A stretch of DNA of 50,592 nucleotides from Alphaproteobacteria bacterium (GTDB lineage: Bacteria; Pseudomonadota; Alphaproteobacteria; SP197), in NCBI GenBank assembly GCA_016869675.1, contig VGDP01000023.1:1-50592 (forward strand), read 5' to 3'. A program made the position numbers and the translations under genes. Below, piece after piece: positions 40,761 to 50,592 of the stretch (its first letter is position 1; each line of letters starts with the position of its first letter). The notes under the pieces are model-generated. The model ran no database searches, was not told the DNA's origin, and saw nothing but the letters and a program-made list of their open reading frames with translations.

Positions 40761-41464
40761 CGCCATCGCGCGCCATGGTGCTGGCGGCCGGGCGCGGTGA
40801 ACGGCTGCGCCCGCTGACCGATCGCCTGCCCAAGCCCATGGTTCCGGTGGGTGGACGGTCGATGATCGACCGGGTGCTCGACCGGCTGGCCGACGCGGGT
40901 GTCCAGGTCGCTGTGGTCAACACGTGGCACCGGGCCGAGGCGATCGAGGCCCATCTCGCCGCGCGTACCCGTCCACGCATCGTCATCAGCCGCGAGGAGA
41001 CCCTGCTCAACACCGGCGGCGGCACCGTGGGCGCGCTGCCGCACCTGGGCGCGGACCCGTTCTACATCGCAGCGGCCAAGATGGTGTGGCGCGACGGCGC
41101 GCGCCCGGCCTTGCGCCGCTTGGCGGAAGCCTGGAACGATGGGACCATGGACGGGCTGCTGCTACTGCAACCGCGCGAGGCGGCGCTCGGCTTCGAGCAC
41201 CCAGGCGATTTCTTTCTGGCGGACGACGGACGCTTGCTTCGGCGCGGTTCGGCGCCCAGCGCGCCCTTCGCCTTCACCAGCCTGCAGCTCGCGCATCCGC
41301 GCGTGTTCGCCGATCCGCCGCCCGGCGCCTTTTCCCTGAACCTGGTGTGGGACCGCGCGATCGCCGCCGGGCGGCTCCACGGCCTGGTGCACGACGGCGA
41401 CTGGTGCAACGTCTCCTCGCCCGGCGGGCTCGCGCTCGCCGAGGCGCGCTCGTGGGATGGCTGA
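40757..41464 (+). CDS. murU: MurU-like nucleotidyltransferase with altered active site
   Basis: 235 aa from GTG 40757. The N-terminal nucleotide-binding motif is intact: MVLAAGRGERLRPLTDRLPKPMVPV, and NTGGGTVGALPHLG follows. The next block should be NSD or NGD, whose Asp binds the catalytic Mg2+; here it reads YIAAAKMVW, so residues 106-108 are Ala-Ala-Lys. The later block usually seen as HVGTP reads NVSSP. MurU converts MurNAc-1-phosphate to UDP-MurNAc; this copy may be inactive, differently specific or regulatory. It sits in the expected tsaE-amgK-murU-addB order and is full length. Confidence 0.8.
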   Translation: MTPSRAMVLAAGRGERLRPLTDRLPKPMVPVGGRSMIDRVLDRLADAGVQVAVVNTWHRAEAIEAHLAARTRPRIVISREETLLNTGGGTVGALPHLGADPFYIAAAKMVWRDGARPALRRLAEAWNDGTMDGLLLLQPREAALGFEHPGDFFLADDGRLLRRGSAPSAPFAFTSLQLAHPRVFADPPPGAFSLNLVWDRAIAAGRLHGLVHDGDWCNVSSPGGLALAEARSWDG

Positions 41465-44400
41465 GGCCGCGCGCGTCCACACCATTCCGGCCGGCGTCCC
41501 CTTCGCCGACGCCCTGGCCACGGGCCTGCTCGCCCGCGCCGCCAATCCCCTGGCGCTCGCCGACATCCAGCTCCTGCTGCCGACGCGCCGCGCCTGCCGC
41601 GCCGTGCGCAATGCGTTCCTGAGGGTCGGCGACGGCCGCGCCCTGCTGCTGCCGCGCCTGGTGCCGATCGGCGACGTAGACGAGGACGTGCTCGACGCCG
41701 AGGACGCCGCGATCGGGCTGGACGCCGAGGACGTGCCGCCGGCCATCACCCCGTTGCGCCGCCAGTTCCTGCTCGCCCGCTTGGTGCTGCGCGCCCAGGG
41801 CGCGCTCGACGTCGGCGGGCCGGAACGGGCGATGCGGCTGGCGGCCGAGCTCGCCCGGCTCTTGGACGACGCCCAGACCGCCGGCGTCGACCTGGCGGGG
41901 CTCGTCGACCTGGCGCCCGCGACGTACGCCGAACACTGGCAACGGAGCCTGGCGTTCCTCGGCATCCTGACCGAGCATTGGCCGCGCGTCCTAGCCGAGC
42001 ACGGCGTGATCGACCCGGCCGACCGGCGCAACCGGCTGCTCGCGCGCCAGGCGGCGCGCTGGCGCGCGGCGCCGCCTGCCCATCCAGTGGTGGTGGCCGG
42101 ATCGACGGGCAGCGTGCCCGCCGCCGCCGACCTGATCGCGGCGGCGTCGTCGCTGCCCACGGGCCTGGTCGTGCTGGCCGGCCTGGACCAGGCCATCGAC
42201 GAGGAGAGCTGGCAGGCGATCGGAGTGACCCACCCGCAGGCGGCGCTGAAGCGGTTGCTCGAGCGCCTGGGCCTCGGGCGCGACCAGGTCGCGCCGTGGC
42301 CCCACGGCGACGGCAGCCGCGCGGCGGCGCGTGCGCGCCTGCTGGGCGATGCCCTGCGTCCGGCGGCGACGCTGGGCGCCTGGCGGACCTCGGGTGGCGG
42401 GGATGATGCTGCCCTTGCCGGCCTGGCGCGGGTCGACGGCCCGACGCCCCAGGTCGAGGCCGGTGTCATCGCCGGCGCCATGCGCGAGGCGCTGGAAACC
42501 CCCGGCGCCACGGCGGCGCTGGTCACGCGCGACCGCGCGCTCGCCCGGCGCGTCGCCGAGGCCTTGGGCCGCTGGGGTGTGGCGGTCGACGATTCCGCGG
42601 GCCGGCCGCTGGCCGCGACACCGCCCGGCGCGTTCCTGCGCCTGGCCGCCGCCATGGCCGAGTCGAACGTCGCGCCGGTGCCGCTGCTTGCCCTGCTCAA
42701 GCACCCGTTGGCCGCCGGCGGGGGCGATCCCGCGCGGTTCCGTGCCGCGGTGCGGGCCATCGAGCGCGTGGCCTTGCGTGGGCCGCGTCCGGCCGCCGGC
42801 TTCGACGGCCTGGTCGCGGCTCTGGCTGACAAGGGGACGCCGCGCCTGCGCAACCTGGCGCGGCGCGTCGCCCGCGCCGGCCACCGCTTCGTCCGGCTGG
42901 CCGGCGGCAACCGGCCAGCGCGCCTCGGCGACCTGGTCGAAGCCCACGTCGCCTTCGCCGAAGCGCTGGCCGCGACCGACGAGGAAGGCGGCGCCGACAG
43001 GCTGTGGCGGCACGAGGATGGCGAGGCCCTGGCCGCGTTCATCGGCGAATTGCGCGAGGCGTCCCAGGCCATGGGTCGCGTGCGCGGCGCCGACTACGCG
43101 GGCGTGTTCGATACCTTGATCGCCGGACGCGCCGTTCGGCCGCGCTACGGTCGGCACGCCCGGCTCGCCATCTGGGGCCCGCTCGAGGCACGGTTGCAGA
43201 GCGCCGATCTGATGATCCTGGGCGGGCTGAACGAAGGGTCGTGGCCGCCCGCGCCCGATCTCGACCCCTGGCTCAGCCGGCCCATGCGCGCCTCCCTCGG
43301 CCTGGCCGACCGCGAGGCGCGCATCGGCCAGGCGGCGCACGACTTCGTGCTGGGCGCCGCGGCGCCGCGCGTCCTGTTGACCCGCGCCGAGAAGGTCGAA
43401 GGCACGCCGACCGTGGCGTCGCGCTGGCTGGTGCGCCTCGACGCCCTGCTTGCCGCCCGGGGCCTGTCCGAACGTCCGTTCGGCGGCGCGGTGGCCCGGC
43501 TCGGCTGGCACGCGGCGCTCGACCGGCCCGACCGGGTGGTGCCCGTGGCTCGGCCGCGCCCCGCGCCACCCGTCGCCGCCCGGCCGCGCCGGGTGTCGGT
43601 CACCGATATCGAGACCTGGCTGGCCGACCCCTACGCCCTCTACGCGCGCGCGGTGCTGGGTCTCGCGGCGCTCGACCCGATCGACGCCGATCCGGGCGCG
43701 GCGGAACGGGGCCAGTTCATCCACGATGCCCTCGACCGGTTCGTCAAGGCGTGGCCCGACGCGCTGCCTGACGACGCCCTCGACCAGCTCATCGCGTGCG
43801 GCAGGGCGGCGTTCGGCGCGGCGCTGGAACGGCCCGACGTCCATGCGTTCTGGTGGCCGCGCTTCAAGCGGATCGCTGCGTGGATCGTCGAGCAGGAGCG
43901 TGAACGGCGCGGCGGGATCGCGCGTGTGCTCGGCGAGGCGCGCGGACGCGCGGTGCTGGACGCGCCGGCCGGTCCATTCGAGCTGCACGCCAAGGCCGAT
44001 CGGGTGGAGGTGAACCGTGACGGCTCGCTCGCGCTGATCGACTACAAGACCGGCGTGCGTCCGGCGAACAAGGCGGCCCGCGAGGGCAAGGCGCCGCAAC
44101 TGGCCCTGGAAGGCGTCATCGCCAACCACGGCGGCTTCGAGGGCGTGGCGCCGGGGCCGCTCGCCGAACTTGCCTTCTGGCACCTCAAGGGCGGCGACCC
44201 GGCGGGCGAGGCAATTGCGCCGAAGGGCCTGGTCGACGCGTGCGCCCAGACCGAGGACGCCCTGAAGGGACTGGTACGGCGCTTCGATGACCCCGCCACG
44301 CCCTACCTCGCGTGCCCGCGCCCCGACATGGCGCCCGCCTACAACGACTACGAGGAGCTGGAGCGCATCGACGAGGGCGAGGCGACGCCCAGCGCCGTAC

Positions 44401-47400
44401 CGCCGTACCGGCCCAGGACACGCGACCGCCCGCGCGCCGGCGCGCGGGCCCCCCGGCCCGAACAGCGCGACATGTCCGATCCGGCGACCTCCGCGTGGGT
44501 CGCCGCGTCCGCCGGCACGGGCAAGACCACGGTGCTGACCGACCGGGTGCTGCGGCTGCTGGCCGGCGGCACGCCGCCCGGACGCCTGCTGTGCCTGACC
44601 TTCACCAAGGCCGCGGCGGCCGAGATGGCCCAGCGCATCGAGCGCCACCTAGGCCATTGGGCGACCGAGCCCGACGACGCGTTGGCCGCGAGCGTCGGCG
44701 CGCTCCTGGGCGCGCCGCCGGCGCCCGAGGTGCTGGACCGCGCTCGACGCCTGTTCGCCGACGTGCTCGAGACGCCGGGCGGCCTGCCGATCATGACGAT
44801 CCACGCCTTTTGTCAGGCGGTTCTGGAGCGCTTCCCGGTCGAGGCGGGCGTCGCGCCCGGCTTCGAGGTGCTCGACCCGTGCAGCGCGCGCGAACTGCAG
44901 GCCGACGCGCTCGACGCGGTCATCGCGCGCTCGAAGTCCGATCCGCTGCTGAATCGGCACGTGGCCACCGTCGCGACCTGGTCGGGCGAGATGACCCTGC
45001 GGGCCCTGATGGACGAGGTGACCCTGGATCGTGGCCGCTTCGACGCCTTGCTGCGGCGCCACGGCCGCGCCGCCGGTGCCGCCGCTGCATTGCGCCGGAC
45101 ACTGGGCGTGGTGTCGGACGACACGATCGAGCGGCTGATCGCGCGCACGGCGGATCCCGCCGCCATGGACGAACCCGCGCTCGCCGCCGCCGCGCGCGCC
45201 CTGCGCGAGGGGTCCGTGACCAACCAGGAGCTGAGTGCCGCCATCGCCGCCTTCCTCGCAACGCCGGCGGCGGCACGCCACGAAGACTTCGATGCCTGGT
45301 ACGGCCGGTTCCTCACCAAGGAGGAAAAGCCCCGCAAGACCTCGATCCTGATCAACAAGGCGGTGGCGCAGCGTTACCCCGCGGCTGTCGCGGCGCTGGA
45401 GCGCGAGCGGGACCGCATGGTCGCCTTCGTCGACGAGCGCAACCGCGTCATCACCGCCGAGGCGACGGCCGCGCTGTTCCACGTCGGCGAGGCGTTCCTG
45501 GCGGCCTACGCGGCGCGCAAGGCGGTGCGCGGCGTGCTCGACTACCAGGATCTGATCCTGGCCGCCGCCGACCTGGTGACACGGCCCGGCGCGGCGCCCT
45601 GGGTGCTCTACAAGCTGGACGGCGGCATCGATCACATCCTGGTGGACGAAGCGCAGGACACCAACCCCGACCAATGGCGCATCGTGACCGCCCTGGTCGA
45701 CGAGTTCTTCGCCGGCGAAGGCGCGCGCGAAACGCCGCACACGCTGTTCGTGGTCGGCGACCAGAAGCAGTCGATCTTCAGCTTCCAGGGCGCTGACCTG
45801 GAAGGCTTGGCCAGTGTGCATCACGACCTGCGCCAGCGCGCCAACGCCGCCGGGGTGCCGTGGCTGGAACGCGCCATGACCCACTCGTTCCGTTCGGCGC
45901 CGGTCATTCTGGAGGTGGTGGACACGGTGTTCGCGCGGCCCGAGGCCCGTGCCGGCGTGGTCCCAGATGGCGCCGTCGTGCGCCATGTGGCCGGGCGTTC
46001 GGACGCGCCGGGGCGGGTCGAGGTCTGGCCGTTGACCAGCGGCGATCCGCCCGCCGCCACTTCGCCGTGGGACGCGCCGATCGCGTATCCGGGCGCCGTG
46101 CGCGCGATCGATCGTCTGGCCGCCCATGTCGCGGATCGCATCGCCGCCATGGTTGGTCGCGTGACGCTGGGTTCGCGCGGCCAGCCGGTGCGGCCGGGCG
46201 ACATCATGATCCTGGTGCGCAGGCGCGATGCGATGATGCACGCCGTGATCCGCGCGCTGCGCCGGCGCGACGTGCCCGTGGCCGGGATCGACCGCATAGC
46301 GCTGACCGGCCCGCTCGCGGTGCGCGATCTGCTCGGCCTGATCGACGTGGCGCTGCTGCCCGAGGACGACCTCGCGCTGGCCACCGTGCTCAAGGGGCCG
46401 CTGGTCGGTCTGGACGAGGACGAACTCTACACCCTGGCCGCCGGCCGCGCCAAGGGAGTGCGCCTGTGGACGGCGCTGGGCCGCGCCGCGCGACGCCACG
46501 CGCGCTGCGCCCGCGCGCACCAATGGCTCGCCGGCCTGATGGCGCGCGCGGATTTAGCCACGCCATACGGGTTCCTGTGCGCCGCGCTCGAGGAGCCGGC
46601 CGCCCAGGAGGATGCCGGCAGCGGCCGCCACGCCATGCTGCGCCGCCTCGGGCTCGAGGCCGAGGACCATATCGACGAGTTGCTGACCCAGGCGCTCGCC
46701 TTCGAACGCAACCACGCGCCGACCCTGCAAGGCTTCGCCCACTGGCTGGGCCACGCCGACGTCGAGGTCACGCGCGATCCCGAGCATGGCCGCGACGAGG
46801 TGCGCGTGCTGACCGTGCACGGCGCCAAGGGGCTCGAGGCGCCGATCGTGATCCTGCCGGACACCACCGGGCTGCCCAATGCGAGCGGCGTCCGGCTGGA
46901 TTGGATCGCCGAGGATGGGCCGCTCTGGTCGGGCCGCGCGGCCTTCGCCGAGGATCGGGGCCGGGGCGCGAAGCAGGCGCGTCTGGTGGCCGAGGCGGCG
47001 GAGTACCGCCGGCTGCTCTATGTCGCCCTGACGCGCGCTGCGGATCATCTGATCGTGGCCGGCCTGGCGGTCAAGGGAACGGCGCCGGACGGCTCGTGGT
47101 ACCGCCTGGTGCGCGATGCCCTGGGGCCGGTGGCGACGGTCCAGCCCTTCGACGCCTGGCCCGGCGATGCGTTTGTGTTGGAAGCCGAGGGTCGAGGGCC
47201 TGGTCCTGCCGAGCCTGGACCCGCGCCCGAGCCGGACCTTCCGGCCTTGCCGGCCTGGTTGCGGCAACCCGCCCCGGTCGATGCGCCGGCGCGTCAACCG
47301 TTGGCGCCGTCGCGCGGGCCCGAGGAACCGCCGTCCGGGTCGCCGAAGAAGGCGGACGCCGACCGCCGCCGGCGCGGCCGACTGATCCATCGCCTGCTGG

Positions 47401-47828
47401 AACTGCTGCCCACCGTGGCGCCATCGGCGCGCGCCCGCCTGGCCGAACGCCTGTTGGTACGCCACGGCGCGGACCTCGATGTCGCCGCGCGCGCCGCCAT
47501 GGTGGCCGAGGTGCTGGCCGTCATGGCGGCGCCCGGTCTGGTGGATCTGTTCGGGCCGCAGAGTCGGGCAGAGGTCCCCATCGTCGGCGTGGTCGGCGAT
47601 CGAGTGGTCGCCGGCCAGGTCGACCGCCTGGTCGTCGGTGCCGGAACCGTCGTCATCGCGGACTTCAAGTCGGATCGCGCCGTGCCCGACCAGGTGCCCG
47701 CCGCGTACCGGCACCAGATGGCGCATTACGCCGCGGTGCTGCGCCAAGTCTTCCCGCGCCACCGCGTCAGCGCCGTGCTGATCTGGACCGAGGGCCCGCG
47801 CGTCATGCCGGTGCCCGACCTTGCTTGA
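41457..47828 (+). CDS. addBA: Fused AddB-AddA double-strand break repair helicase-nuclease
   Basis: A single 2,123-aa frame covers what are normally two genes. Residues 1-1000 are AddB: alphaproteobacterial N-terminus (IQLLLPTRRACRAVRNAF), GGLNEGSWPP, then the RecB-family nuclease with LIDYKTG (Asp862, Lys864). A proline/arginine-rich linker of about 35 residues leads into AddA from about 1003: Walker A SAGTGKT (Lys1023), LCLTFTKAAAAEMA, Walker B VDEAQDT (Asp1397), QKQSIFSFQGA, VHGAKGLEAPIV, YVALTRA and a second nuclease motif DFKSD (Asp2069, Lys2071). AddAB resects double-strand ends for RecA loading. An in-frame ATG at 44472 could restart AddA but has no Shine-Dalgarno site. It overlaps murU by 8 nt. 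Confidence 0.88.
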   Translation: MAEAARVHTIPAGVPFADALATGLLARAANPLALADIQLLLPTRRACRAVRNAFLRVGDGRALLLPRLVPIGDVDEDVLDAEDAAIGLDAEDVPPAITPLRRQFLLARLVLRAQGALDVGGPERAMRLAAELARLLDDAQTAGVDLAGLVDLAPATYAEHWQRSLAFLGILTEHWPRVLAEHGVIDPADRRNRLLARQAARWRAAPPAHPVVVAGSTGSVPAAADLIAAASSLPTGLVVLAGLDQAIDEESWQAIGVTHPQAALKRLLERLGLGRDQVAPWPHGDGSRAAARARLLGDALRPAATLGAWRTSGGGDDAALAGLARVDGPTPQVEAGVIAGAMREALETPGATAALVTRDRALARRVAEALGRWGVAVDDSAGRPLAATPPGAFLRLAAAMAESNVAPVPLLALLKHPLAAGGGDPARFRAAVRAIERVALRGPRPAAGFDGLVAALADKGTPRLRNLARRVARAGHRFVRLAGGNRPARLGDLVEAHVAFAEALAATDEEGGADRLWRHEDGEALAAFIGELREASQAMGRVRGADYAGVFDTLIAGRAVRPRYGRHARLAIWGPLEARLQSADLMILGGLNEGSWPPAPDLDPWLSRPMRASLGLADREARIGQAAHDFVLGAAAPRVLLTRAEKVEGTPTVASRWLVRLDALLAARGLSERPFGGAVARLGWHAALDRPDRVVPVARPRPAPPVAARPRRVSVTDIETWLADPYALYARAVLGLAALDPIDADPGAAERGQFIHDALDRFVKAWPDALPDDALDQLIACGRAAFGAALERPDVHAFWWPRFKRIAAWIVEQERERRGGIARVLGEARGRAVLDAPAGPFELHAKADRVEVNRDGSLALIDYKTGVRPANKAAREGKAPQLALEGVIANHGGFEGVAPGPLAELAFWHLKGGDPAGEAIAPKGLVDACAQTEDALKGLVRRFDDPATPYLACPRPDMAPAYNDYEELERIDEGEATPSAVPPYRPRTRDRPRAGARAPRPEQRDMSDPATSAWVAASAGTGKTTVLTDRVLRLLAGGTPPGRLLCLTFTKAAAAEMAQRIERHLGHWATEPDDALAASVGALLGAPPAPEVLDRARRLFADVLETPGGLPIMTIHAFCQAVLERFPVEAGVAPGFEVLDPCSARELQADALDAVIARSKSDPLLNRHVATVATWSGEMTLRALMDEVTLDRGRFDALLRRHGRAAGAAAALRRTLGVVSDDTIERLIARTADPAAMDEPALAAAARALREGSVTNQELSAAIAAFLATPAAARHEDFDAWYGRFLTKEEKPRKTSILINKAVAQRYPAAVAALERERDRMVAFVDERNRVITAEATAALFHVGEAFLAAYAARKAVRGVLDYQDLILAAADLVTRPGAAPWVLYKLDGGIDHILVDEAQDTNPDQWRIVTALVDEFFAGEGARETPHTLFVVGDQKQSIFSFQGADLEGLASVHHDLRQRANAAGVPWLERAMTHSFRSAPVILEVVDTVFARPEARAGVVPDGAVVRHVAGRSDAPGRVEVWPLTSGDPPAATSPWDAPIAYPGAVRAIDRLAAHVADRIAAMVGRVTLGSRGQPVRPGDIMILVRRRDAMMHAVIRALRRRDVPVAGIDRIALTGPLAVRDLLGLIDVALLPEDDLALATVLKGPLVGLDEDELYTLAAGRAKGVRLWTALGRAARRHARCARAHQWLAGLMARADLATPYGFLCAALEEPAAQEDAGSGRHAMLRRLGLEAEDHIDELLTQALAFERNHAPTLQGFAHWLGHADVEVTRDPEHGRDEVRVLTVHGAKGLEAPIVILPDTTGLPNASGVRLDWIAEDGPLWSGRAAFAEDRGRGAKQARLVAEAAEYRRLLYVALTRAADHLIVAGLAVKGTAPDGSWYRLVRDALGPVATVQPFDAWPGDAFVLEAEGRGPGPAEPGPAPEPDLPALPAWLRQPAPVDAPARQPLAPSRGPEEPPSGSPKKADADRRRRGRLIHRLLELLPTVAPSARARLAERLLVRHGADLDVAARAAMVAEVLAVMAAPGLVDLFGPQSRAEVPIVGVVGDRVVAGQVDRLVVGAGTVVIADFKSDRAVPDQVPAAYRHQMAHYAAVLRQVFPRHRVSAVLIWTEGPRVMPVPDLA

Positions 47829-47885: not shown

Positions 47886-48209
47886 ATGACCGTCAAGCAC
47901 GCCTCCGACGCATCGTTCGACCAGGACGTGCTCAAGGCCGAACGGCCCGTACTCGTCGATTTCTGGGCGGAATGGTGCGGCCCGTGCAAGCAGATCGCCC
48001 CGGCGCTCGAAGCGCTGGCGGGCGAACGCGCCGACAAGCTGGACGTGGTCAAGATCAACATCGACGACAACCAGAAGACGCCCACCCGCTACGGCGTGCG
48101 CGGCATCCCGACCCTGATGCTGTTCAAGGGCGGCCAGGTGGTGGCGACCAAGGTGGGCGGCGCGCTGCCCAAGTCCAAGCTGTTCGAGTGGGTCGATTCG
48201 GTGGTGTGA
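47886..48209 (+). CDS. trxA: Thioredoxin
   Basis: 107 aa with the classic active site [15 protein letters not shown] (Cys31, Cys34), cis-proline in [11 protein letters not shown], and no signal peptide, so it is cytoplasmic. It reduces disulfides and serves as the usual electron donor for MsrA/MsrB and ribonucleotide reductase. AGGGA is about 8 nt before ATG 47886. Its place directly after addA is a conserved alphaproteobacterial arrangement. Confidence 0.97.
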
Positions 48210-48217
48210 GGCACGCC

Positions 48218-49579
48218 GTGGCGAAGCAGGACGCGGCGGCGGCGGTCGCGGCGTTCCGCGCCGCGCACCCGAGCATTGAGACCGTCGATCCGCTGATCGT
48301 CGACATGGTCGGCGCGGTGCGCGGCAAGCGCCTCGCCATCGACGCGCTCGACAAGGTGATCGGCGGCGGCGTGGTGCTGCCCGGTTCCACCTACGTCATG
48401 GACATCCTGGGCAACAACGTGGACGCGACGGGCATGGGTCCGCGCGACGGCGACCCGGACTACCCCTGCCACATGGTTCCCGGCAGCCTGGTGCCCATTC
48501 CTTGGGCGACGCGGCCGCGCGCCCAGGCGCTGATGAGCATGACGTTCCCGGACGGCACGCCATACCCCTACGACCCGCGTGCGATCCTGGCCGCCGTCGC
48601 GGCGCGCTTCGCGCCGCTCGGGCTGCGACCCACCGTGGCCGTTGAGCTTGAATTCTATCTGCTCGACCCGGCGCGCGCGGCGGACGGCGGCGTGCGCGTC
48701 GCCGCGCCGGGCGGCAAGGCGCCGACCGAGACCCAGGTCTACAGCCTGGAGGACCTGGACGCGATCGCGCCGTTCCTGGACGACGTGCAGCGCGCGTGCG
48801 CCATCCAGGGCATTCCGGCCGATGTGGCGACCGCCGAGTACGCGCCGGGTCAGTACGAGATCAACCTGCGCCACGTCGACGATCCGGTGCTGGCCGCCGA
48901 CCACGCGATCCTGCTCAAGCGCGCGATCCGGGGCACGGCCGAGCGCCACGGCTATGTGGCCACGTACATGGCCAAGCCGTTCATCGAGTTGCCCGGCAAC
49001 GGCACCCACATCCACCTCAGCCTGTGGGACGCGCAAGGGCGCAACGTGTTCGACGAGGGCGACGCGGGCAGCGACCGGCTGCGTCACGCCATCGGTGGCC
49101 TGCGGGCGACCATGGCGGAATCCATGGCCTTGTTCGCGCCCAACGCGAACTCATACCGGCGCATCCGTCCCGGCGCGTGGGTACCCATGGCGCCGACCTG
49201 GGGCTTCAACAACCGGACCGTCGCCGTGCGCATTCCGGCGACGCTCGGCAAGGCGACCCGGCTGGAGCACCGCGTCGCCGGTGCCGATGCCAATCCCTAC
49301 CTGGTGTTGGCGGCCGTGCTGGCCGGGGTCCATCACGGTCTAGAGCGACGGCTTGATCCGGGGCCGCCCATCGAAGGCAACGCCTACGACCAGGTGCCGG
49401 CCTTGATGCCGGACAGTTGGGCCGCCGCGCTGGACCAGCACGACGCTGGCACCATCCTGCCAACCTACATCGACCGCCGGTACTGGAGCTTCTACGGCAT
49501 GGTCAAGCGGCACGAGCGGCGCACGTTCGAAGGGCGCGTTACGCCCACCGAGTACGACTGGTATCTGACGACGGTCTGA
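48218..49579 (+). CDS. Glutamine synthetase family protein, PuuA-like
   Basis: 453 aa. Catalytic-domain blocks: VAVELEFYLLD and AEYAPGQYEINL (metal-binding Glu), GNGTHIHLSLWD (ammonium/ATP region), YRRIRPGAWVPMAPTWGFNN, and RLEHRVAGADANPYLVLAAVLAG. The spacing resembles gamma-glutamyl-polyamine synthetases and related GlnA-like enzymes rather than the housekeeping type I enzyme; there is no Tyr adenylylation segment. It probably ligates glutamate to an amine. GTG 48218 is preferred; GTG 48206, overlapping the trxA stop, would add four residues. No other putrescine-pathway gene is in view. Confidence 0.85.
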   Translation: MAKQDAAAAVAAFRAAHPSIETVDPLIVDMVGAVRGKRLAIDALDKVIGGGVVLPGSTYVMDILGNNVDATGMGPRDGDPDYPCHMVPGSLVPIPWATRPRAQALMSMTFPDGTPYPYDPRAILAAVAARFAPLGLRPTVAVELEFYLLDPARAADGGVRVAAPGGKAPTETQVYSLEDLDAIAPFLDDVQRACAIQGIPADVATAEYAPGQYEINLRHVDDPVLAADHAILLKRAIRGTAERHGYVATYMAKPFIELPGNGTHIHLSLWDAQGRNVFDEGDAGSDRLRHAIGGLRATMAESMALFAPNANSYRRIRPGAWVPMAPTWGFNNRTVAVRIPATLGKATRLEHRVAGADANPYLVLAAVLAGVHHGLERRLDPGPPIEGNAYDQVPALMPDSWAAALDQHDAGTILPTYIDRRYWSFYGMVKRHERRTFEGRVTPTEYDWYLTTV

Positions 49580-49600
49580 CGCGCGGAGACGCCCGCCGCG

Positions 49601-49906
49601 TCACGCCGACTTGCGCTCGGTCTCGTCCGCATCGGCCTCGAGGCGCGCCGCCAGTCGCATCACCGCGGCGTGGGACTGCTCGATCTCCGCCAGGAGATAG
49701 TGGCGCAACGCTCCGTCGGCGCCCGACACCGTCTCGTCGTCGCTGTCCAACGCGGCCAGCCGCAGGCGGTCCCGCTCGAACAGGCGTTGCGCCTTGCCGA
49801 GCCTCGTCACCAACGTCTTAAGTGACTCGTCCAGTTCCGCGAAATGGGCGACGTGGGCCGATGGGGCCGATGATCCCGCTCTGATTCTTCCCGCGCGTTC
49901 AGGCAC
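49601..49906 (-). CDS. Small helical protein, paralogue of the next gene
   Basis: 101 aa of unknown function from GTG 49906, with GGAGG about 8 nt upstream. Residues 25-92 look alpha-helical and coiled-coil-like (LDESLKTLVTRLGKAQRLFE, then GADGALRHYLLAEIEQSHA). The core aligns by eye with the protein encoded at 50044-50376, sharing an R-x2-F-x-R-[DE]-R stretch and GA-[DE]-x-ALR-x-Y. No signal peptide or membrane segment is present. Convergent with the glutamine-synthetase-like gene. Confidence 0.6.
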   Translation of the reverse strand: MPERAGRIRAGSSAPSAHVAHFAELDESLKTLVTRLGKAQRLFERDRLRLAALDSDDETVSGADGALRHYLLAEIEQSHAAVMRLAARLEADADETERKSA

Positions 49907-50043
49907 GACGGGCCTCCGTTCTTGTCATTACCCCCGAGCGGCCTCGGACGACGGGTGTCGCGAGGCGCGCCGATTCATGAACCGAGGCTACACCAAGGGG
50001 GCGCGACGCGACACCGCTCGAAAGGCGTACGCAGTCCGCGACT

Positions 50044-50376
50044 CTAACCCCGCGGGCGGCGCCGGGTCGTCGCCATGGTCGTCTTCAATTGCTGCGCGAT
50101 CTTGCGCAGATCGGTGCACGCCGCCTCCAGTTCCGCCGCGACGTAGAGACGCAAGGCGGACTCCGCGCCGGTGGCGGCCTCGTCGTTGGCAATCGACGTC
50201 AGAAGCGAGCGCTCGCGGCTGAATCGTCGGCTGGTGCGGCCCAGGGCGTCGACGACATCGTCGAGCAAACCACTCAAGGCGGCGATGTCCTGGTCGCCCT
50301 CGGCGTGAGACGCAGGCGGCGACTTCGCGCTCTTGCTCTTCTTCGAGCGGTTCTCGCCTTCATGGCCGTCGGACAT
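50044..50376 (-). CDS. Small helical protein, paralogue of the preceding gene
   Basis: 110 aa of unknown function from ATG 50376, with GGGAG and AAGG just upstream. A charged, lysine-rich N-terminus (about residues 1-30) is followed by helical sequence (LLDDVVDALGRTSRRFSRER, then GAESALRLYVAAELEAACTD) and a basic tail (TTRRRPRG). It aligns with the 49601-49906 product over about 65 residues, suggesting a tandem duplication. The 137-bp gap between them has no evident gene. Confidence 0.6.
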   Translation of the reverse strand: MSDGHEGENRSKKSKSAKSPPASHAEGDQDIAALSGLLDDVVDALGRTSRRFSRERSLLTSIANDEAATGAESALRLYVAAELEAACTDLRKIAQQLKTTMATTRRRPRG

Positions 50377-50480
50377 CCTTGCGCTCCCGAGGAATAGTTC
50401 GCCGGCGGCACAATAGGTGAGGTAGTAGCGACGCGATGATACGTAGTCGGCTCATTAGGGTTAACACCAACCTGCATTGA

Positions 50481-50592
50481 TCAGAACCCGTTTGCCCATT
50501 CGCGGGGTCCGATGGACATGAATTGCCAGGGTTGATCGACGAGGTTGTTCCAGGCTTGGCAGCAGAGATCGACGATGTCCTCGGCGGATTTG
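50481..50592 (-). CDS. IS630-family transposase, C-terminal end (runs off the window)
   Basis: The last 36 codons of a frame entering from the right edge read KSAEDIVDLCCQAWNNLVDQ and then SIGPREWANGF before TGA at 50483-50481. The AWNNLVD and SIGxREWA pattern is the usual C-terminus of IS630-type DDE transposases. Only this part is inside the window, so neither intactness nor the second IS end can be judged. No terminal inverted repeat could be fixed between here and the small protein gene. Confidence 0.7.
   Translation of the reverse strand, partial: KSAEDIVDLCCQAWNNLVDQPWQFMSIGPREWANGF

Follow-up and report, generated by a model that had tools for sequence, protein, structure and literature searches.

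Two small genes that lie in tandem near one end of an alphaproteobacterial contig are, as judged from their sequences, tandem paralogs, homologous far beyond chance. The explanation that we favor, and to which we give about an even chance of being right, is that they form a lineage-restricted pair, that their products are predicted hairpins packing into a helical-bundle adaptor, and that the insertion sequence beside them is only a neighbor. The points that we counted for this explanation were the homology of the two genes, their coding pattern, the predicted hairpins, the opposite charge of the two products, the lack of relatives, and the position of the insertion sequence edge outside the pair. 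The stretch of DNA analyzed (here called the window) comprises all of contig C23, 50,592 nt long, of a 3.49-Mb genome in 97 contigs, and in it the pair lies beside a block composed of addBA, trxA, and a glutamine-synthetase-like gene.

Both genes are on the minus strand. Gene 2 (P0002; 50044 to 50376) is the upstream member and encodes a basic protein of 110 aa (pI 8.9) from an ATG start codon, with charged tails at the N and C termini. Gene 1 (P0001; 49601 to 49906) encodes an acidic protein of 101 aa (pI 5.8) from a GTG start codon, and the net charges of the two products are opposite (−3.1 for the gene 1 protein and +1.7 for the gene 2 protein). The original prediction, made from the sequence alone, had given the coordinates, strand, and lengths of both genes exactly. 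It had also credited both with good ribosome-binding sites (RBSs), and by eye we read an RBS-like GGAGG 6 bases before the gene 1 GTG and GGGAG 7 bases before the gene 2 ATG. The gap between the genes (49907 to 50043) is, from the coordinates, 137 bp long, which weakens the case for tight co-translation of the pair. This gap lacks a sigma-70-like site and, on the strand of the pair, a terminator-like site; a terminator-like site is present on the plus strand at 49907 to 49920. No signal sequence or enzyme motif was seen by eye in either protein.

In a single BLASTP comparison, the two proteins were 33% identical over 78 aa (E = 6e-10). Their Smith-Waterman score was 119, compared with a mean of 31 (standard deviation, 5.7) and a maximum of 71 among 2,000 shuffles. 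The shared core that had been proposed for them, with its motif GA-[DE]-x-ALR-x-Y, is thus borne out, the motif reading GADGALRHY in one protein and GAESALRLY in the other, and the invariant residues fall in both predicted helices and around the turn. When the two genes were aligned by codon, the same residue was found at 30 of 100 codons, 14 of these 30 having a different codon sequence. Mismatches at codon positions 1, 2, and 3 numbered 54, 42, and 60 of 100, and the excess at the third position may be read as a weak coding signal at this divergence.

The GC contents at codon positions 1, 2, and 3 were 0.73, 0.50, and 0.82 for gene 1 and 0.63, 0.54, and 0.86 for gene 2. Three flanking genes have the same pattern of low second and high third positions, the third lying at 0.90 to 0.92, so that the pair is slightly lower, and this pattern was absent from the overlapping plus-strand frames (0.62, 0.74, and 0.65 for one and 0.84, 0.52, and 0.65 for the other). 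That the two frames are spurious or decayed would fit the finding of no homolog outside the pair, but we consider it barely probable, because the paralogy lies far above the shuffles and the GC by codon position agrees with coding on the minus strand; both frames also have a start codon preceded by an RBS-like run. On this sequence evidence, we take gene 1 and gene 2 to be real genes.

AlphaFold2 predicted two long helices for each protein. In the gene 1 model, they span residues 17 to 55 and 62 to 100, joined by a turn at DDETVS, with moderate confidence (mean pLDDT, 73.6; pTM, 0.42). In the gene 2 model, they span residues 22 to 61 and 66 to 105, joined at IAND (mean pLDDT, 80.1; pTM, 0.62), and the core blocks reached 91 to 95 except at the turn, a high core confidence obtained from an alignment of two rows. 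The N-terminal tail was of low confidence in both models. The proteins had been described as coiled-coil-like; their helical character stands, and the models predict, more exactly, an antiparallel two-helix hairpin. Short proteins rich in alanine and leucine are readily predicted as helix hairpins.

At an E value of ≤0.001, Foldseek matched neither model to a PDB structure, nor the gene 1 model to a viral model. The best VIA-align Z scores were 9.3 for gene 1 and 10.4 for gene 2, and the tool itself notes that helical bundles scoring below a Z of about 13 may have no more in common than their arrangement. The matches listed were a mixture of designed proteins, WXG100 proteins, a phasin, and the coiled coils of PI3K and LSD1. 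Because the scores lie below that level and the matches mix unrelated bundles, we draw no relationship from them, and the models point only to a fold class, the helix hairpin, for both proteins.

WXG100 proteins and LXG-partner hairpins (ESAT-6/CFP-10, EsxE/EsxF, and LapD2) are encoded as diverged pairs, and they resemble the pair in their length of ~100 aa and their two-helix hairpin, which is here a predicted one. The gene 1 model had a match of this kind among its best (4i0x; Z score of 9.3, 2.2 Å, 80 aligned), and the gene 2 model matched CFP10-ESAT6 (3fav; Z score of 9.9, 3.1 Å, 89 aligned) and 7uh4 (Z score of 9.8, 4.0 Å, 97 aligned). However, the WXG100-type matches were only 7 to 11% identical to the pair, their scores were tied with those of unrelated bundles, and the setting of the pair is alphaproteobacterial. 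The W-x-G turn is absent, neither protein containing a tryptophan, and so is the C-terminal YxxxD/E that follows helix 2 in WXG100 proteins. The sole tyrosine of each protein (residue 70 in gene 1 and residue 78 in gene 2) lies instead early in helix 2, in YLLAE and YVAAE, respectively. Membership in the WXG100 family fails on the missing tryptophan and the early YxxxE, and, on the predicted models, the likeness remains one of form.

The phasin PhaP (5ip0), likewise small and helical (its structure has 107 residues), aligned with the gene 2 model with a Z score of 10.4 (4.1 Å, 98 aligned). Unlike phasins, the pair matched no curated phasin model in Pfam or NCBIfam; even at E values of up to 10, it hit nothing in Pfam, and no storage-granule gene was found among the neighbors scanned. 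Nor did Pfam, NCBIfam, or PADLOC reveal a toxin or antitoxin domain of the kind found in type II toxin-antitoxin systems.

The original prediction had not recognized the family and had proposed a profile search for homologs. In searches of 95 other genomes (15 of the same family) with the single proteins, neither had a match at an E value of ≤0.001 besides the other. A profile built from the two proteins had no credible match among the other 15 genomes of the family, in which all candidates were scored. The same was true of 385 genomes of the class, 398 of the phylum, and 386 relatives, samples that overlap and include the genome of the window and in which at most 11 to 12 candidates per genome were scored. 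No third copy was found in the own genome, where all 36 candidates from the profile search were scored. The matches listed for plasmids, phages, and viral contigs all had E values of 0.4 or worse. The collections of known families likewise gave chance-level matches only, namely, HpnN in NCBIfam (0.053, the sole match), several in PHROGs (0.06 to 0.18), and Cmr1 in PADLOC for gene 1 (0.008), and we also took as chance the matches to PDB sequences (0.16 or worse). In literature listings searched under general terms, nothing about the pair turned up.

A few matches called for a closer reading. At an E value of ≤0.01, the class sample had matches in 9 of 385 genomes, one of which was the own genome, leaving 8 foreign matches, compared with about 4 expected for a per-genome E value of that size. 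Seven of these eight alignments were inspected and cover parts of other frames, and a class-sample match in region L116 is set against a long plus-strand frame on the opposite strand, by eye a Mur ligase. The one foreign match below 0.001, in genome G109 (E = 2.9e-4 in both the class and relatives samples), lies within an 874-aa frame; we judged it to be chance, as it is a piece of a long protein and about 0.1 such matches are expected in 386 genomes. Within the family, 6 of the 15 other genomes had profile matches at an E value of ≤10. One of these (G014; E = 0.0025) is opposite a 341-aa frame that is by eye a hydrolase, and another (G006; E = 0.4) belongs to a set of four membrane-anchored coiled-coil proteins. 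This set is encoded by four similar short genes in tandem (L132:1333-2646, on contig C1 of G006), between frames that by eye resemble Rieske-type oxygenases. The match in G010 (L130) was read as well, and those in regions L131 and L133 to L136 had E values of 0.23 or worse.

Because the searches of the family, the samples, and the collections gave nothing credible, the pair appears, as far as could be searched, to be accessory in its own family and orphan across the collections and samples covered, an absence that rests on species samples and a profile of two rows, with which distant homologs may be missed. The pair shares with other orphan, taxonomically restricted small genes its shortness, the lack of a homolog found outside the genome, and the adjacent end of a mobile element. 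It differs from them in having a tandem duplicate, which independently supports the frames as protein coding.

On its downstream side, the pair faces a thioredoxin gene, trxA (47886 to 48209, plus strand; assigned with Pfam), and the glutamine-synthetase-like gene (48218 to 49579, plus strand). The latter matches Pfam Gln-synt_C and falls below the cutoffs of all five NCBIfam models listed. It is convergent with the pair and not part of it, standing tail to tail with gene 1 at a distance of 21 bases. At the threshold set, all but one of the 15 other family genomes had the synthetase-like gene, and trxA lay within the 1.5-kb flank before it at the best locus of each of these 14, as well as in a genome of another family (G016). 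When the flanks of the synthetase-like gene were fetched and all of their frames of at least 45 aa were searched with the profile, the best foreign matches had E values of 0.54 and 0.16.

These flanks bear on the idea that the pair is vertically inherited and belongs to a hairpin family (WXG100-, phasin-, or secretion-chaperone-like) that evolves too fast for recognition. Short helical proteins quickly lose detectable similarity, and VIA-align did pair gene 2 with PhaP and CFP10-ESAT6. Those alignments, however, scored on a par with designed bundles and eukaryotic coiled coils, Foldseek gave nothing at its threshold, and no diverged counterpart rose above these E values beside the synthetase-like gene, and we consider such an origin unlikely.

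In another genome of the same family (G004, region L035), clpB adjoins the synthetase-like gene in the place that the pair occupies in the window. Region L077 has a ClpB-like match ~5 kb away, five further regions that were fetched lacked such direct adjacency, and the own genome carries clpB on contig C2. We considered an insertion of the pair and the insertion sequence between the synthetase-like gene and clpB, but because the adjacency was seen in G004 alone and was absent from the five further regions, we make no claim to an ancestral order. In the own genome (L127:834-1494, on C2), the neighbors that clpB meets tail to tail are genes for a PhdYefM-type antitoxin and a PIN-domain protein, in the position taken in G004 by the synthetase-like gene.

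On the upstream side, the window ends in the end of an IS630-family element (50466 to 50592, minus strand), which includes the last 36 codons of the transposase. As had been predicted, these 36 C-terminal residues (50484 to 50591) match IS630-family transposases from plasmids, the best with 72% identity (E = 2e-11), and matches of this kind occur on 242 plasmid records. From 50466 to the contig end, all 127 bases are identical to two other contig ends of the own genome, in C19 and C46. The edge of the element, at about 50464 to 50466, precedes gene 2 by about 88 bases, and the transposase is separated from the pair by its stop codon and the terminal sequence of the element. This end is present in a single copy on the contig, and the other end of the element is outside the window. 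We rejected a composite transposon on the strength of that single copy, and the genes are not IS630 passengers lying between two ends as far as the contig shows. Because the pair is outside the element and only one such end is on the contig, we see no sign that the insertion sequence carried the pair; in the explanation that we favor, the IS630 copy is a neighbor at which the assembly breaks and not its vehicle. The suggestion of an accessory locus next to a transposase is thus upheld by the absence of the pair from the 15 other family genomes but gains nothing from the transposase.

The pair might nevertheless be horizontally transferred cargo of an unsampled plasmid, phage, or integrated element, with the rest of the element beyond the contig end and a function that is the element's. 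Besides its absence from the other family genomes, the presence of clpB in its place in G004, and the adjacent IS630 end of a plasmid-borne kind, the region from 49580 to 50463 has a GC content of 0.67, compared with 0.70 for the window, and the third codon positions of the pair are lower in GC than those of the flanking genes. These GC differences are small, however; no plasmid, phage, or viral contig matched, and the 21 bases between gene 1 and the synthetase-like gene leave no element gene between them. We regard this origin as rather unlikely.

Under the explanation that we favor, that of lineage-restricted paralogs, a tandem duplication followed by strong divergence would have produced the two genes. 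Each product would be a small, probably cytoplasmic, antiparallel two-helix hairpin, and the hairpins would most likely pack, as homodimers or as an acidic/basic mixed dimer, into a four-helix bundle that may act as a noncatalytic adaptor or scaffold on a partner. The pair would be read toward the synthetase-like gene, possibly from a promoter-like site on the minus strand upstream of gene 2 (TTAACC-17-TATCAT; 50436 to 50464) that abuts the insertion sequence edge. This site is a consensus match only (9 of 12 positions), one being found in the region, compared with a mean of 0.2 (standard deviation, 0.5) in shuffles. By analogy with WXG100 pairs, the acidic and basic proteins could even form an obligate heterodimer, the first known two-component hairpin system of its kind in Alphaproteobacteria, which might, for example, target or chaperone a protein whose gene lies past the end of the contig, but we consider this very improbable.

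To judge from its sequence, the pair looks like a real but ordinary and modest case of duplicated lineage-specific orphan genes. The caution of the original prediction was justified, and the transposase, as a neighbor, gives no function. If real, the pair gives a small and clear example of two proteins restricted to one lineage, in which the duplicate suggests that the frames have been kept as proteins though nothing else alike was found. It would then lend itself to the question of whether orphans of this kind associate with one another; failing that, it is of little importance.

Farther downstream in the window, addB and addA form one continuous plus-strand frame of 2,123 aa (41457 to 47828), in which AddA begins at about residue 1006 by our cut. 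The AddB frame stops before AddA in the G016 genome of the other family (L140), and region L141 gave no match. In three other regions of the family (L137, L138, and L139), one frame runs from AddB to AddA without a stop codon, as it does in L035 up to the edge of that region, and a fusion of AddB and AddA may characterize the family of the window.
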